Under the pieces are notes generated by a model, which did not search any database, had not been told where the DNA came from, and worked only from the letters and a program-made list of their open reading frames with translations. Below, piece by piece: positions 23,553-27,420 of a DNA stretch of 64,000 nucleotides. Location of the stretch: positions 3,320,001 through 3,384,000 of the forward strand of contig NZ_CP159996.1 of NCBI RefSeq assembly GCF_040703035.1. The letters run 5' to 3'. The stretch comes from Terribacillus aidingensis (lineage in GTDB: Bacteria > Bacillota > Bacilli > Bacillales > Amphibacillaceae). A program made the position numbers and the translations under genes. Within the stretch, counting starts at the first letter, position 1. Every line of letters starts with the position of its first letter.

Positions 23553-23586
23553 TGTTGTTGACAAAATGTCAACAACAGCGTATTTT
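23553..23586 (+). promoter_or_regulatory. LCP gene promoter with a palindromic operator over the -35
   Basis: -35 TTGACA (23558-23563), a 17-nt spacer and -10 TATTTT (23581-23586). The -35 lies inside a perfect palindrome of 11-bp arms (23553-23563 and 23567-23577) whose core is TTGACAAAATGTCAA. A 15-mer differing at one base (TTGACAAATTGTCAA) stands before the XRE gene at 25262. A regulator binding here would block sigma-A. Confidence 0.65.
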
Positions 23587-23609
23587 TTAATGGTTAGGGG
23601 GATACGCAA

Positions 23610-24542
23610 ATGGAAAAACAACGGCATACAAGACGTAAGAAGAAGCGACGAATAGGCAGGTATATCCTACTCATCCTCCTTGTGCTCCTAATTGGGGCTG
23701 GTTCCTTCCTTTTCCTTACTGCAAAAGATGTAAAGCAGACGGTGGACGGTATACAGAAGGAATCTGCAGCTATTGATGATGGCGTAACATCGGAAAAAGT
23801 GAAGAACAAAGAGCGCATCAATATCCTGCTGCTTGGTGTTGATGAACGTGATGGTGATGCAGGACGCTCTGATGCGCTTTTGATGATGTCCTTGGATCCT
23901 GCTTCAGAATCAATGGATTTAATCAGTATCCCACGGGATACGCGTACAGAAATTGTCGGTCACGGTACAGTAGATAAGATCAATCACGCCTACGCATTTG
24001 GCGGAGTGGATATGTCCATTAATACGGTTGAAAACCTTTTTGATACGGATATTGATTATTTCGTGGAGATAAATATGGAAGGATTATCCGATCTGGTTGA
24101 TGCTGTTGGCGGAATAACTGTACAGAATGAATTAGACTGGTATGATGAAGGATTCTATAAGAAGGACTATCATTATAAAAAAGGCGAAATCACGCTGGAT
24201 GGTCCGCAGGCTCTTGGTTATGCAAGAATGAGACATTTGGATCCGGAAGGTGATTTCGGGAGGAATGCCCGTCAGCGCCAAGTGATCGAAGCTGTGATCA
24301 ATAAAGGAGCAAGCATTAAATCGGTTAACAAAATTGACGACCTACTTAAAGTGATGGGCAATAATGTACAGACCAATCTTAATCTTTCTTCCATGCAGCA
24401 CTTGTTTACAGATTACCGGAATGTCCGGCAGTCTGTCCAAGAGCATGAGATGAAAGGACAAGGTACAACCATTGATGGTATTTACTATCTGCTCATCCCT
24501 GATGAAGAGATTCAAACCATACATGATAGCATCAGCAAATAA
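23610..24542 (+). CDS. LytR-CpsA-Psr (LCP) family cell-wall ligase
   Basis: Membrane-anchored enzyme of 310 residues that transfers undecaprenyl-pyrophosphate-linked wall teichoic acid or other glycopolymers to peptidoglycan. A basic N terminus precedes one transmembrane helix (about 18-37). The LCP domain shows NILLLGVDERDGDAGRSDAL, ISIPRDTRTEI, KINHAYAFGG and DFGRNARQRQVIEAV, containing the conserved Asp and Arg residues of the active site. AGGGGG precedes the ATG. Single gene ending at a terminator; promoter shared-motif with the XRE operon. Confidence 0.95.
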   Translation: MEKQRHTRRKKKRRIGRYILLILLVLLIGAGSFLFLTAKDVKQTVDGIQKESAAIDDGVTSEKVKNKERINILLLGVDERDGDAGRSDALLMMSLDPASESMDLISIPRDTRTEIVGHGTVDKINHAYAFGGVDMSINTVENLFDTDIDYFVEINMEGLSDLVDAVGGITVQNELDWYDEGFYKKDYHYKKGEITLDGPQALGYARMRHLDPEGDFGRNARQRQVIEAVINKGASIKSVNKIDDLLKVMGNNVQTNLNLSSMQHLFTDYRNVRQSVQEHEMKGQGTTIDGIYYLLIPDEEIQTIHDSISK

Positions 24543-24568
24543 AGCGATCCACAACGGATCGCTTTTTT
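24543..24568 (+). terminator. Terminator of the LCP gene
   Basis: AGCGATCC and GGATCGCT form an 8-bp stem with a 5-nt loop, then TTTTT. It begins at the base after the stop codon. Confidence 0.85.
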
Positions 24569-24575
24569 CTATTAG

Positions 24576-25247
24576 TCACGCAATAGAATTTTTCTTCTGT
24601 AATAAAAATGCGGCAAATAACAAAATCACGGCAACCCATAGACTGTGAAGACCAATTATTCGTTCACTAAAGCTGCCGAGTGCGGCACCGAGCAGATAGA
24701 GGAGAATTGCTGCTCCTCTAAGATAAGTATCAACCATGGATTGTGACCTACGAGTAACCCAGTCTGCGATTCCTTCAACAAAGGCAGCCAGCGTGCTAGT
24801 CAACACCGTGGAGGAAACCCCAGCGACCTTCATATTCCTGCCAGCAATGGTCTGCATCCCCATAGCTGCACTTAAAGACACCAATAACACAATAGACCAG
24901 ATAGAGGAAGCCGGTACGAAGAGTACGCACAATGCAATGGTTGTCAGCCACACAAACTCGGCAAACACGATTCTTCTTGGCTCTCCTTTTTCTTTTCCAA
25001 CTATTTTAGTTGCTAAGATTCCTATGACAAATCCAAGTAAAGCAAATAATGCGTTATTTATTACGACCTGCCTTGCATCTCCCAAACCAATTCCAAGGAG
25101 AACGATATTCCCTGTCATATTCGCAGTAAACACATGTGCTAATCCGATATATCCCAATACATCGACAAGTCCTGAAACGACACATAGAATCAAAACTGCC
25201 ACTTGAAAATTTCTATGCTGCACTTCCATCCCTTCTTTCTCTTTCAT
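24576..25247 (-). CDS. DUF1275 (YoaK-like) membrane protein
   Basis: Protein of 223 residues with about six helices, matching the DUF1275 layout: VAVLILCVVSGLVDVLGYIG, the NMTGNIVLLGIGLG motif and GMQTIAGRNMKVAGVSSTVL. The family function is unknown. Translation is placed at ATG 25247 behind TGAGGT; the frame continues to a TTG at 25268 that would lie in the operator. It is divergent from the XRE operon across the palindrome at 25262, so may share regulation with it. Confidence 0.85.
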   Translation of the reverse strand: MKEKEGMEVQHRNFQVAVLILCVVSGLVDVLGYIGLAHVFTANMTGNIVLLGIGLGDARQVVINNALFALLGFVIGILATKIVGKEKGEPRRIVFAEFVWLTTIALCVLFVPASSIWSIVLLVSLSAAMGMQTIAGRNMKVAGVSSTVLTSTLAAFVEGIADWVTRRSQSMVDTYLRGAAILLYLLGAALGSFSERIIGLHSLWVAVILLFAAFLLQKKNSIA

Positions 25248-25261
25248 TTCTACCTCATTGA

Positions 25262-25276
25262 TTGACAAATTGTCAA
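25262..25276. promoter_or_regulatory. Palindromic operator before the XRE-DedA-UppP operon
   Basis: TTGACAAATTGTCAA is a 7-bp-arm palindrome with one central base. It differs at one position from the core of the LCP promoter palindrome at 23558-23572. Here also a TTGACA is part of it, although the matching -10 (TACCTT, 25285-25290, 17-nt spacer) is weak. Autoregulation by the XRE protein is inferred. Confidence 0.55.
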
Positions 25277-25323
25277 CACTCTTGTACCTTTAACAGGTGA
25301 TTGAACAAAGGAGGCATCTTTTC

Positions 25324-25923
25324 ATGCAAATGAATGACAAGCTAATCACATTATTGAAGCATAAAACCAAAGAAAAAGGTTTATCGATGCGTGCTTTAAG
25401 CAGGCAAACTGGCATCGATCCAGCAATTGTATCCAAGATCATGAATGGAAAACGCAATGCAACGGTAAATCATTTACATAAATTGAGCGAATCATTGGAT
25501 GTGCCCCTTGAAGAATTAATGACTGCAGCCGGCTTTATTGAATCCGTACCGATTGATGGGCAGCAGCATCTACTAGCTCTTTGTCAGCAAGCTGATCCAG
25601 ATTTCAGTCAGGGACGCGTAGAAAAACAGCTTGCTTCATACGAGGAAGTCGCACTGACTGAAGGCGGAAAACAAATTATTGACGAGAAATTCGAAGAGAA
25701 GCTTAATGCAGTTGGAAGTGTCGGCAAGCTTGTCCAAGACTTGAAGCAGATGTACGTCAAATTTCAGACCGGCGCGGGATCTAAACGTGAATTGATCATT
25801 CTCGGAGCAGCATTGTTATATTTCATCAATCCAATTGATGCGCTTCCTGATTATATTTTTCCTTTTGGATATCTGGATGATACCTTGGCAGTGCATTCCG
25901 CTATGCAGGCTACCAATAAATAA
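25324..25923 (+). CDS. XRE-family regulator fused to a DUF1232 (YkvA-like) domain
   Basis: Protein of 199 residues. The helix-turn-helix (about 8-64: LSMRALSRQTGIDPAIVSKI) is followed by a charged linker and a C-terminal DUF1232 membrane-type segment (about 155-195: LIILGAALLYFINPIDALPD). The HTH-DUF1232 fusion suggests a membrane-associated regulator. AAAGGAGG lies 10 nt before ATG 25324; an upstream ATG at 25297 has none. First gene of an operon with DedA and UppP genes. It is the best candidate to bind the two TTGACA-N3-TGTCAA palindromes. Confidence 0.87.
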   Translation: MQMNDKLITLLKHKTKEKGLSMRALSRQTGIDPAIVSKIMNGKRNATVNHLHKLSESLDVPLEELMTAAGFIESVPIDGQQHLLALCQQADPDFSQGRVEKQLASYEEVALTEGGKQIIDEKFEEKLNAVGSVGKLVQDLKQMYVKFQTGAGSKRELIILGAALLYFINPIDALPDYIFPFGYLDDTLAVHSAMQATNK

Positions 25924-25937
25924 AAGGAGAAACGCTT

Positions 25938-26582
25938 GTGGAATCTTGGATGACTGACCTAATGGAAACCTACGGATACCCTGCCATTCTTTTTTTGATG
26001 GCTTTTGAGAATATCTTTCCGCCAATTCCTTCCGAAATCATACTTCTATTCGGGGGCTTTCTCGCTGCCACTACCAGCTTAAGTCCCGTAGGTGTAATTT
26101 TGTCCGCAACTGTTGGGGCTATGCTCGGAAGCGTTATATTGTATTGGGTCGGAAAGCTTTTCGATCTGGAACGGCTCGAGGTTTGGGTGGAACGCTGGGG
26201 TCGATATTTGAAATTAAAAAGCTCCCATTTACATAAAGCAGATAGCTGGTTTGATAAATATGGCGTATGGACAGTATTCCTATGCCGATTCATCCCTGTC
26301 GTACGAAGTCTCATATCGATTCCGGCAGGTATGGCGAATATGCATTTCGGCTTGTTTCTTCTCTATTCTACTTTTGGCACGTTAATTTGGAACGCTGTCA
26401 TGGTCATGCTTGGTGTATGGCTTGGCGCATCGTGGGAAAGTGTAGAAACATACCTTGGTTATTATCAATACGGCGTTCTTGCTTTAGCACTACTTGTTTT
26501 AGCAGGTGCTGGAATCTGGTTCCTGCGAAAGCTCCGGAAGAAGAATACAATTCAAACAGTAAGGAAGAAAACAAATGTATGA
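25938..26582 (+). CDS. DedA-family membrane protein, candidate undecaprenyl-phosphate flippase
   Basis: Polytopic protein of 214 residues with the DedA signatures FENIFPPIPSEIILLFGGFL (residues 22-41) and FLCRFIPVVRSLISIPAGMA, which form the re-entrant core. DedA proteins of the UptA group recycle undecaprenyl phosphate across the membrane; others act on phospholipids or PE. GTG start with AAGGAG 8 nt upstream. It overlaps the uppP gene by 8 nt. Coupling to a C55-PP phosphatase gene supports the UptA-like role, by inference. Confidence 0.9.
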   Translation: MESWMTDLMETYGYPAILFLMAFENIFPPIPSEIILLFGGFLAATTSLSPVGVILSATVGAMLGSVILYWVGKLFDLERLEVWVERWGRYLKLKSSHLHKADSWFDKYGVWTVFLCRFIPVVRSLISIPAGMANMHFGLFLLYSTFGTLIWNAVMVMLGVWLGASWESVETYLGYYQYGVLALALLVLAGAGIWFLRKLRKKNTIQTVRKKTNV

Positions 26583-27420
26583 AATTATTGTAGGGCTCAT
26601 CATGGGCTTAGTGGAAGGGTTGACGGAGTTTGCTCCTGTCTCCTCCACCGGGCATATGATTATCGTTGACGATTTATGGCTGAATATTGATCAGCTTTTC
26701 AATAAGGAAGTTAGCATCACATTCATGGTCGTGATTCAGCTAGGTTCCATACTGGCTGCCGTGATTGTGTTCAAGGACCGATTCATGGACATACTCGGAA
26801 TAAGAAAACTGGAGGGAAAGACGGAACAGCTTCCAGGCAAGCAAGGTAGATTCAGCCTGGGGATTGTCATTACAGGTCTTATCCCGGCAGCAGTGCTCGG
26901 TTTCTTCGTGCAGGATATGGTGGACAACTATCTGTTTTCAATTATCACAGTGATTGCAGCACTCATTGCAGGTGCTATCCTCATGTTATTTGCAGACCGC
27001 CACACCAAAAAACATTCACCTACAGTAGAATCTTTGGATGAACTAACGTATAAAAAGGCGTTCTTGATTGGCCTCTTCCAATGTATCGCTCTTTGGCCTG
27101 GGTTTTCCCGTTCTGGCTCGACCATTTCAGGCGGTGTCCTATTAGGACTGAATCACCGTGTAGCGTCTGACTTCACCTTTATCATGGCAGTTCCTGTTAT
27201 GGCAGGTGCAAGTGCACTTACGCTTATGAAGCACTTGGATGCTTTCACTCCTGATGTCATTCCGTTCTTTGTTGCTGGATTTATCAGTGCGTTTGTTTTT
27301 GCACTGCTTGCAATACGGACTTTCCTAAAAATAATATCCAAGTACAAGCTTGTTCCATTTGCTATTTACCGCATTGTACTTGCTGCTGTTTTGCTGGTTG
27401 TCGTACTTGCAGCAAGCTGA
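26575..27420 (+). CDS. uppP: UppP (BacA), undecaprenyl-diphosphatase
   Basis: Integral membrane phosphatase of 281 residues that converts C55-PP to C55-P for cell-wall lipid recycling and gives bacitracin tolerance. It contains the catalytic motifs VEGLTEFAPVSSTGHM (residues 12-27) and PGFSRSGSTISGGVLLGL. AAGGAAG precedes the ATG, which lies inside the end of the dedA gene. Third gene of the XRE-DedA-UppP operon; terminator follows. Confidence 0.96.
   Translation: MYEIIVGLIMGLVEGLTEFAPVSSTGHMIIVDDLWLNIDQLFNKEVSITFMVVIQLGSILAAVIVFKDRFMDILGIRKLEGKTEQLPGKQGRFSLGIVITGLIPAAVLGFFVQDMVDNYLFSIITVIAALIAGAILMLFADRHTKKHSPTVESLDELTYKKAFLIGLFQCIALWPGFSRSGSTISGGVLLGLNHRVASDFTFIMAVPVMAGASALTLMKHLDAFTPDVIPFFVAGFISAFVFALLAIRTFLKIISKYKLVPFAIYRIVLAAVLLVVVLAAS

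Follow-up and report, generated by a model that had tools for sequence, protein, structure and literature searches.

A putative autoregulated XRE-DUF1232 repressor and its 19-bp palindrome at wall-building and carrier-recycling genes of Terribacillus and other Bacillales

In Bacillus subtilis the sigma factor SigM governs, among other genes, rodA, bcrC, uptA, tagT and tagU, according to PMC11081497, and PMC11081497 and PMC11898649 report that it responds to the free undecaprenyl-phosphate pool. In Listeria, LstR is presented in the abstract of PMC6624303 as a small PadR-type repressor acting mainly on its own operon, which holds a non-canonical FtsW/RodA homologue; the abstract describes this homologue as lacking RodA/FtsW function, and it is assumed there that the LstR family responds to envelope-acting compounds. 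Here we analyze a stretch of 64,000 nucleotides of the Terribacillus aidingensis genome (contig NZ_CP159996.1, positions 3,320,001 to 3,384,000 of the forward strand; hereafter the window). It contains a gene for a regulator with an XRE-type helix-turn-helix (HTH) and a C-terminal DUF1232 domain, followed by genes for a DedA protein and the undecaprenyl-diphosphatase UppP, and the same palindrome occurs in front of this operon and in front of a nearby gene for an LCP-family wall-polymer ligase.

The neighbors of XRE-DUF1232 genes cover the same steps as the SigM/YhdLK system, comprising SEDS proteins, a UppP or BcrC-like phosphatase, a DedA/PopT-like flippase and an LCP ligase, which suggests a parallel regulator of carrier-lipid use. 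SigM, a sigma factor, is sequestered by an anti-sigma complex in the membrane, whereas XRE-DUF1232 is a single protein that appears to act on sigma-A-type promoters through a putative operator. It resembles LstR in being a putative dedicated regulator of its own operon with an FtsW/RodA-type gene, although it belongs to the XRE and not to the PadR type. Its HTH is similar in sequence and fold to SinR/SlrR and other XRE (Cro/CI-type) proteins, SlrR being the best NCBIfam match at 28 bits, far below the cut-off of 250; it differs from them in the C-terminal DUF1232 domain and in the gene set. The operator of SinR/SlrR is also different from the palindrome described here. The DUF1232 motif is shared with YkvA/DUF1232 proteins. 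YkvA-type proteins are not known to have an HTH, and the shorter, C-terminal-only matches obtained in homologue searches fit this.

We consider it quite probable that XRE-DUF1232 is an autoregulated repressor which, through a 19-bp dyad, governs wall-building and carrier-recycling genes. The sites, their conservation, the classes of adjoining genes, the geometry of the promoters and a single case in which residue 44 and the operator changed together are read from sequence; binding, dimerization, repression and a signal are inferred. A dimer of this one-component repressor would bind the dyad TGTTGACA-WWW-TGTCAACA and thereby block RNA polymerase, as the dyad contains the -35 box of the promoter, which is of the sigma-A type. 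In this Terribacillus three promoter regions would be controlled: that of its own operon (XRE, DedA and UppP) together with the divergent DUF1275 gene, that of a TagU-like LCP gene, and a distant one serving, in divergent orientation, an FtsW-like/RodA-like SEDS pair and a second uppP gene. In other Bacillales, regulator and site are found at operons with LCP, SEDS, UppP, BcrC-like or PopT-like genes. Relief of repression would lead to a joint rise of wall polymerization, polymer release from the carrier, carrier dephosphorylation and carrier flipping, as with SigM in B. subtilis, the DUF1232 tail being the putative reader of envelope state or carrier pool.

The whole genome of 3,576,432 bases has three exact copies of TTGACA-N3-TGTCAA, two of them in the window, and one copy of the reversed control pattern. 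All three adjoin the XRE operon, the LCP gene or the SEDS/second uppP region. When two mismatches were allowed, the window count (5) was not above that of shuffles (mean 4.29), and significance thus depends on the exact sites, their position and their conservation. Ten genomes of the genus hold 23 exact sites: 10 in the XRE/DUF1275 intergenic region, 8 in the SEDS/UppP2 intergenic region, 2 at the LCP gene and 3 inside a reading frame, read as that of a Lon-type protease (lon-like). The XRE site is exact in every one of the ten. The LCP site is also present in all of them, exact in two and with one mismatch in the 15-bp pattern in eight; in these eight the promoters read TTGACAAATCGTCAA or TTGACAAATAGTCAA, within a longer dyad, so that the core is better written TTGAC-N5-GTCAA. 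The 19-bp pattern TGTTGAC-N5-GTCAACA was scanned in the same genomes, with individual places listed for eight of them (G001-G008). Among the 25 listed matches with at most one mismatch, 23 were XRE, SEDS/UppP2 or LCP sites, and the remaining two were single matches in G005 and in G006. The possibility of more targets in the genus was considered and rejected: at two mismatches 101 sites were counted in the ten genomes and 75 for the reversed control, a surplus that the known sites explain.

Outside the genus, a protein search of 159 genomes of the family detected at least 44 full-length homologues in at least 38 genomes, with 34-47% identity. The exact pattern occurs in these family genomes in at least 52 places, 31 of them at XRE-DUF1232 genes and 21 elsewhere among the matches listed. 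Full-length matches were present in at least 24 of 299 genomes drawn evenly from the order and in at least 5 of 398 from the phylum; these frequencies are lower bounds because the best few candidates were scored per genome. From a scan of named genomes the best 80 of 234 relatives were kept. The relatives include Bacillus spizizenii, B. paralicheniformis, B. altitudinis and a strain labelled B. subtilis, and further ones occur in Neobacillus, Lysinibacillus, Sporosarcina, Paenibacillus and Sporolactobacillus. For the promoter analysis 125 loci were collected, two of which (L085 and L100) have no long XRE frame, and the other 123 were reduced to 98 non-redundant loci at 90% identity. The exact site was found in 59 of these 98 promoters, TTGAC-N5-GTCAA in 68, and a site with at most one mismatch in 78. 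In 2728 tiled 400-base windows of the same loci the corresponding counts were 3, 9 and 17. Since such windows are mostly coding, a second control was made of 767 promoters that belong to the remaining genes at these loci; it gave 2, 5 and 8, and both exact matches fall on a single site, the operator of this species' LCP gene. With these controls a chance origin was ruled out.

The consensus over the 78 promoters is T(72%) G(82%) TTGACA-WWW-TGTCAA C(90%) A(71%). This 19-bp dyad is symmetric, and a -35 box needs neither its outer G and C nor its right arm. The promoters look sigma-A-like (TTGACA, 17 bp, TAnnnT), with TAnnnT at spacer 17 in 57 of the 78. As expected for an autoregulated repressor, a conserved site overlaps the core promoter of the regulator's own gene, and its position on the -35 box and spacer favors repression with autoregulation. 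Some operators lie inside much longer perfect dyads, reaching up to 17 bp past the core on each side (L186, L097, L201, L162, L079, L053 and L046, and L001 at about 1490-1525). Four or more further dyad pairs were counted in 16 of 88 operators, against a mean of 0.9 and a maximum of 6 with shuffled right arms. In Terribacillus the flanks of the long dyads vary between species, with complementarity mostly kept.

Analysis of the gene neighborhoods revealed at least one LCP, SEDS, UppP, BcrC-like, PopT-like or DedA gene in 86 of the 98 loci and at least two in 29. LCP and SEDS genes were each near the regulator in 50 loci, BcrC-like genes in 10, DedA in 4, and UppP and PopT-like genes in 3 each. 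The first recognized downstream gene was LCP in 37 loci and SEDS in another 37, with none recognized in 12; as the genomes examined hold 2-5 LCP and 4-6 SEDS genes each, 74 of 98 is well beyond chance. At L197 the PopT-like protein scored 258 bits against a cut-off of 400, and the BcrC-like and UptA-like proteins are likewise below their equivalog cut-offs, yet these names are the best matches. A preliminary description of this DNA had proposed that XRE-DUF1232 links carrier recycling and wall-polymer attachment through a common palindrome, and had suggested searching for the motif in this genome and its relatives; the 3 of 3 genome sites at carrier or wall genes and the promoter and neighborhood counts bear this out. 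The literal gene order XRE-DedA-UppP, by contrast, did not hold across genera: XRE is followed by DedA in 8 of the 10 Terribacillus genomes, this uppP copy occurs in 2 of 10 (those of the window's species), and outside the genus XRE is mostly accompanied by LCP or SEDS genes. YtaF was found near 24 of the 98 loci and TatC near 5; the extra TatC-like genes stand at L136, L151, L152, L178 and L190, the L178 copy scoring 180 bits against a TatC cut-off of 133.

The factor that recognizes the palindrome is very probably the XRE-DUF1232 protein. The HTH of this protein covers about residues 14-70, with Arg44 right after the helix at 33-40, and DUF1232 covers residues 158-189; both domains score above their cut-offs (HTH_3, PF01381, 42.7 bits against 23; DUF1232, PF06803, 42.4 against 23). 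Across genera the site tracks the XRE gene while the adjoining genes change. Residue 44 is Arg in all 78 site-bearing members of the 98 regulators, and members with three or more mismatches (n = 19) comprise 12 with Arg and 7 with Gln. In a wider set of 145 distinct frames, reduced to 140 because five did not match the residue pattern, the core TTGAC-N5-GTCAA was present in 90 of 120 Arg44 promoters and in none of 19 Gln44 promoters; the one Ser44 member has no core. Arg44 promoters without the core show variant half-sites in some cases and nothing recognizable in others. The Gln44 members form a monophyletic sister clade (support 100), in whose sites the C:G position is occupied by another base pair, and of the 12 outer bases of TGTTGA-N7-TCAACA at least 11 are retained in 11 of their 19 promoters, against 19 of 767 control promoters. 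That residue 44 and the operator changed together speaks for the XRE protein as the one that reads the site. Many independent Arg/Gln switches were also considered, and rejected because the Gln clade has one origin. A divergent ytaF gene was observed at four Gln44 loci (L285, L289, L290 and L296). Four SEDS-linked regulators (L091, L092, L184 and L074) have half-changed sites and His33 plus Val, Ile or Ala at residue 46, possibly a second change of specificity.

Some 65 kb separate the regulator from the third exact site of the genome (L001), which is flanked by an FtsW/RodA/SpoVE-family frame and, on the opposite strand, by the second UppP gene. This frame is the first gene of a tandem SEDS pair. 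Both proteins of the pair pass the cut-off of the FTSW_RODA_SPOVE domain (PF01098); the first also exceeds that of FtsW (365 against 337.5), and the second scores 277 against 337 for the RodA equivalog and 161 against 150 for the RodA subfamily NF037961. As read by eye, the L001 palindrome supplies the -35 box of the SEDS gene, followed at 18 bp by TATSAT-like -10 boxes, and the uppP2 -35 carries a half-degenerate copy of the palindrome. One genome of the genus (G009) has neither uppP2, the SEDS pair nor the site; another (G002) has uppP2, but the 7 kb retrieved around this gene contain neither a SEDS match nor the site. In a SEDS tree of 46 rows, the second gene falls in a group of seven (SH-aLRT 100), the other six of which stand beside XRE in Neobacillus, Rossellomorea and Bacillus, and the first groups with the second SEDS genes of XRE operons (SH-aLRT 94, with poor inner resolution); both are separate from the genome's other FtsW/SpoVE-type genes. 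SEDS genes that adjoin the regulator elsewhere, and here lie 65 kb away yet bear the operator, are the best evidence that control may be exerted in trans. The regulon of the preliminary description stood for the window sites, but it would be wider than claimed and include this SEDS pair and second uppP. Two of the three UppP-type genes of this genome lie in operator-bearing regions; the third is matched, at similar identity, in each of the other nine genomes of the genus, one listed counterpart being distinguishable by identity and place alone. Outside the genus, 11 of the at least 21 exact places away from XRE were inspected, and 7 were inside frames and 4 were intergenic beside unrelated kinds of genes. 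The reversed control gave about 64 in family genomes outside the genus, so that sites distant from the regulator are not in excess there.

The features of the window and of the distant regions are listed in Table 1. Both palindromes and the named genes lie where the preliminary description had placed them, its gene calls agree with the domain matches (LCP, DUF1275, HTH_3 plus DUF1232, VTT/DedA and BacA/UppP), and the LCP site, as it had said, supplies a -35 box, as does the XRE site. The LCP protein passes the LCP domain cut-off (159 against 62) and is below that of the TagU equivalog (362 bits against 441). DedA is below both UptA equivalogs (172 bits against 300 and 139 against 250), yet these are its best named matches, and UppP passes both of its equivalog cut-offs (NF001390, 330 against 260; TIGR00753, 286 against 217.5). 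DUF1275 adjoins XRE in all ten genomes of the genus; the listed TTG is probably not its true start, which would lie farther downstream.

Table 1. Features of the window (window positions) and of the distant regions (genome coordinates, G000:C1).
Feature	Position	Strand	Remarks
Operator 1, TTGACAAAATGTCAA	23558-23572	none	over -35 of LCP gene
Dyad enclosing operator 1, TGTTGACA-AAA-TGTCAACA			
LCP promoter -10 box, TATTTT	23581..23586	+	17-bp spacer from TTGACA
LCP-family wall-polymer ligase gene	23610..24542	+	PF03816 domain; top named match TagU
DUF1275 membrane protein gene	24576..25268	-	divergent from XRE; operator 2 common to both
Candidate DUF1275 -10 box, TAGAAA (weak)	25247..25252	-	18 bp from opposite-strand TTGACA
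Operator 2, TTGACAAATTGTCAA	25262-25276	none	over -35 of XRE operon, facing DUF1275
XRE operon -10 box, TACCTT (weak)	25285..25290	+	17 bp from TTGACA
XRE-DUF1232 regulator gene	25324..25923	+	HTH_3 and DUF1232 domains
DedA (VTT) protein gene	25938..26582	+	UptA-like
UppP/BacA undecaprenyl-diphosphatase gene	26575..27420	+	start overlaps dedA end
Tandem SEDS pair, first gene	3278481-3279542		genome coordinates
Tandem SEDS pair, second gene	3277300-3278403		genome coordinates
UppP-type genes (three)	2409305-2410159, 3279764-3280618, 3346596-3347402		genome coordinates

Regarding the C-terminal part of the regulator, which had been called a membrane-type DUF1232 tail, the DUF1232 domain was confirmed and any membrane role is conjectural: among the 19-residue stretches sampled, the most hydrophobic one averages only 1.22 on the Kyte-Doolittle scale, as a moderately hydrophobic helix. 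An alignment of 26 sequences showed seven invariant DUF1232 residues (Asp172, Pro175, Asp176, Tyr177, Gly182, Asp185 and Asp186). The model of the C-terminal domain is helical (pLDDT 81); its comparison with the PDB gave nothing below E 1.4, and the full-length model matched mainly HTH structures. In the open-access literature we found no functional study of DUF1232, the DUF1232 papers there being plant RING-gene surveys, and no paper on an XRE-DUF1232 regulator; the passage retrieved there for YkvA merely names a neighboring gene. It is conceivable, if doubtful, that DUF1232 senses the carrier lipid directly, the hydrophobic helix and the invariant residues docking to the inner leaflet and binding undecaprenyl phosphate, undecaprenyl diphosphate or a precursor linked to the lipid. 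In that case XRE-DUF1232 would be the counterpart of SigM/YhdLK in a single protein, reading the free carrier pool and directly controlling the carrier-cycle genes.

Other explanations of the palindrome and of the regulator were weighed against these data. If the palindromes were RNA hairpins, terminators or chance copies of a -35 hexamer, the much longer dyads of some sites (16 of 88) could be understood, but the dyads are short at most sites, they lie at the -35 box and so upstream of the transcript concerned, and the contrast of 59/98 with 3/2728 windows and 2/767 promoters leaves such an origin a negligible chance. Another transcription factor might bind the palindrome, with the XRE gene as merely one of its targets, and the 20 of 98 XRE homologues without a site within one mismatch would agree with this. 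We regard it as very improbable, because the site goes with the XRE gene whichever genes come downstream, 31 of the at least 52 exact places outside the genus are at XRE genes while 7 of the 11 others inspected are inside frames, and residue 44 and a base pair of the site change together.

Some XRE proteins are activators, and several of the -10 boxes found here are weak, as would suit activation; nevertheless, the dyad lies over the -35 hexamer and part of the spacer, its left arm being the -35 box itself, which is the usual position of a repressor, and an activator is thus improbable. The regulator might also serve a wider envelope or developmental programme, such as sporulation, of which the carrier-lipid genes would be one part. 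The YtaF and TatC neighbors speak for this, as do the NCBIfam description of YtaF as a sporulation membrane protein and the divergent ytaF at four Gln44 loci. Against it stand the LCP or SEDS gene first recognized downstream in 74 of 98 loci, the 23 of 25 near-perfect Terribacillus matches listed at carrier or wall genes, and the sigma-A-like appearance of the promoters, and we judge it unlikely, though well worth keeping in mind.

Several observations weigh against XRE-DUF1232 as a repressor of wall-building and carrier-recycling genes acting through this dyad. Twenty of the 98 homologue promoters have no site within one mismatch, 30 of the 120 Arg44 promoters have no core, and in 12 of the 98 loci all six gene classes are absent; the YtaF and TatC neighbors may mean that the theme is broader than carrier lipid. 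The DedA and LCP proteins of the window fall below the cut-offs of the named equivalogs. The Arg/Gln switch is one event, so that Fisher's p, uncorrected for kinship, overstates it. The placement of the first distant SEDS gene is under the 95 mark of the tree program, and convincing distant targets were found in Terribacillus alone, so that the evidence for a putative trans-regulon comes from one genus. As no solved structure resembles the C-terminal domain, its ligand and membrane contact are guesses.

Undecaprenyl phosphate is a scarce carrier shared by wall polymers, and its sensing and rationing are, according to PMC11081497 and PMC11898649, only beginning to be understood. With a regulator found in many genera of Bacillales, a defined putative operator and a candidate recognition residue, carrier rationing would become directly testable, and DUF1232 would gain its first functional setting.

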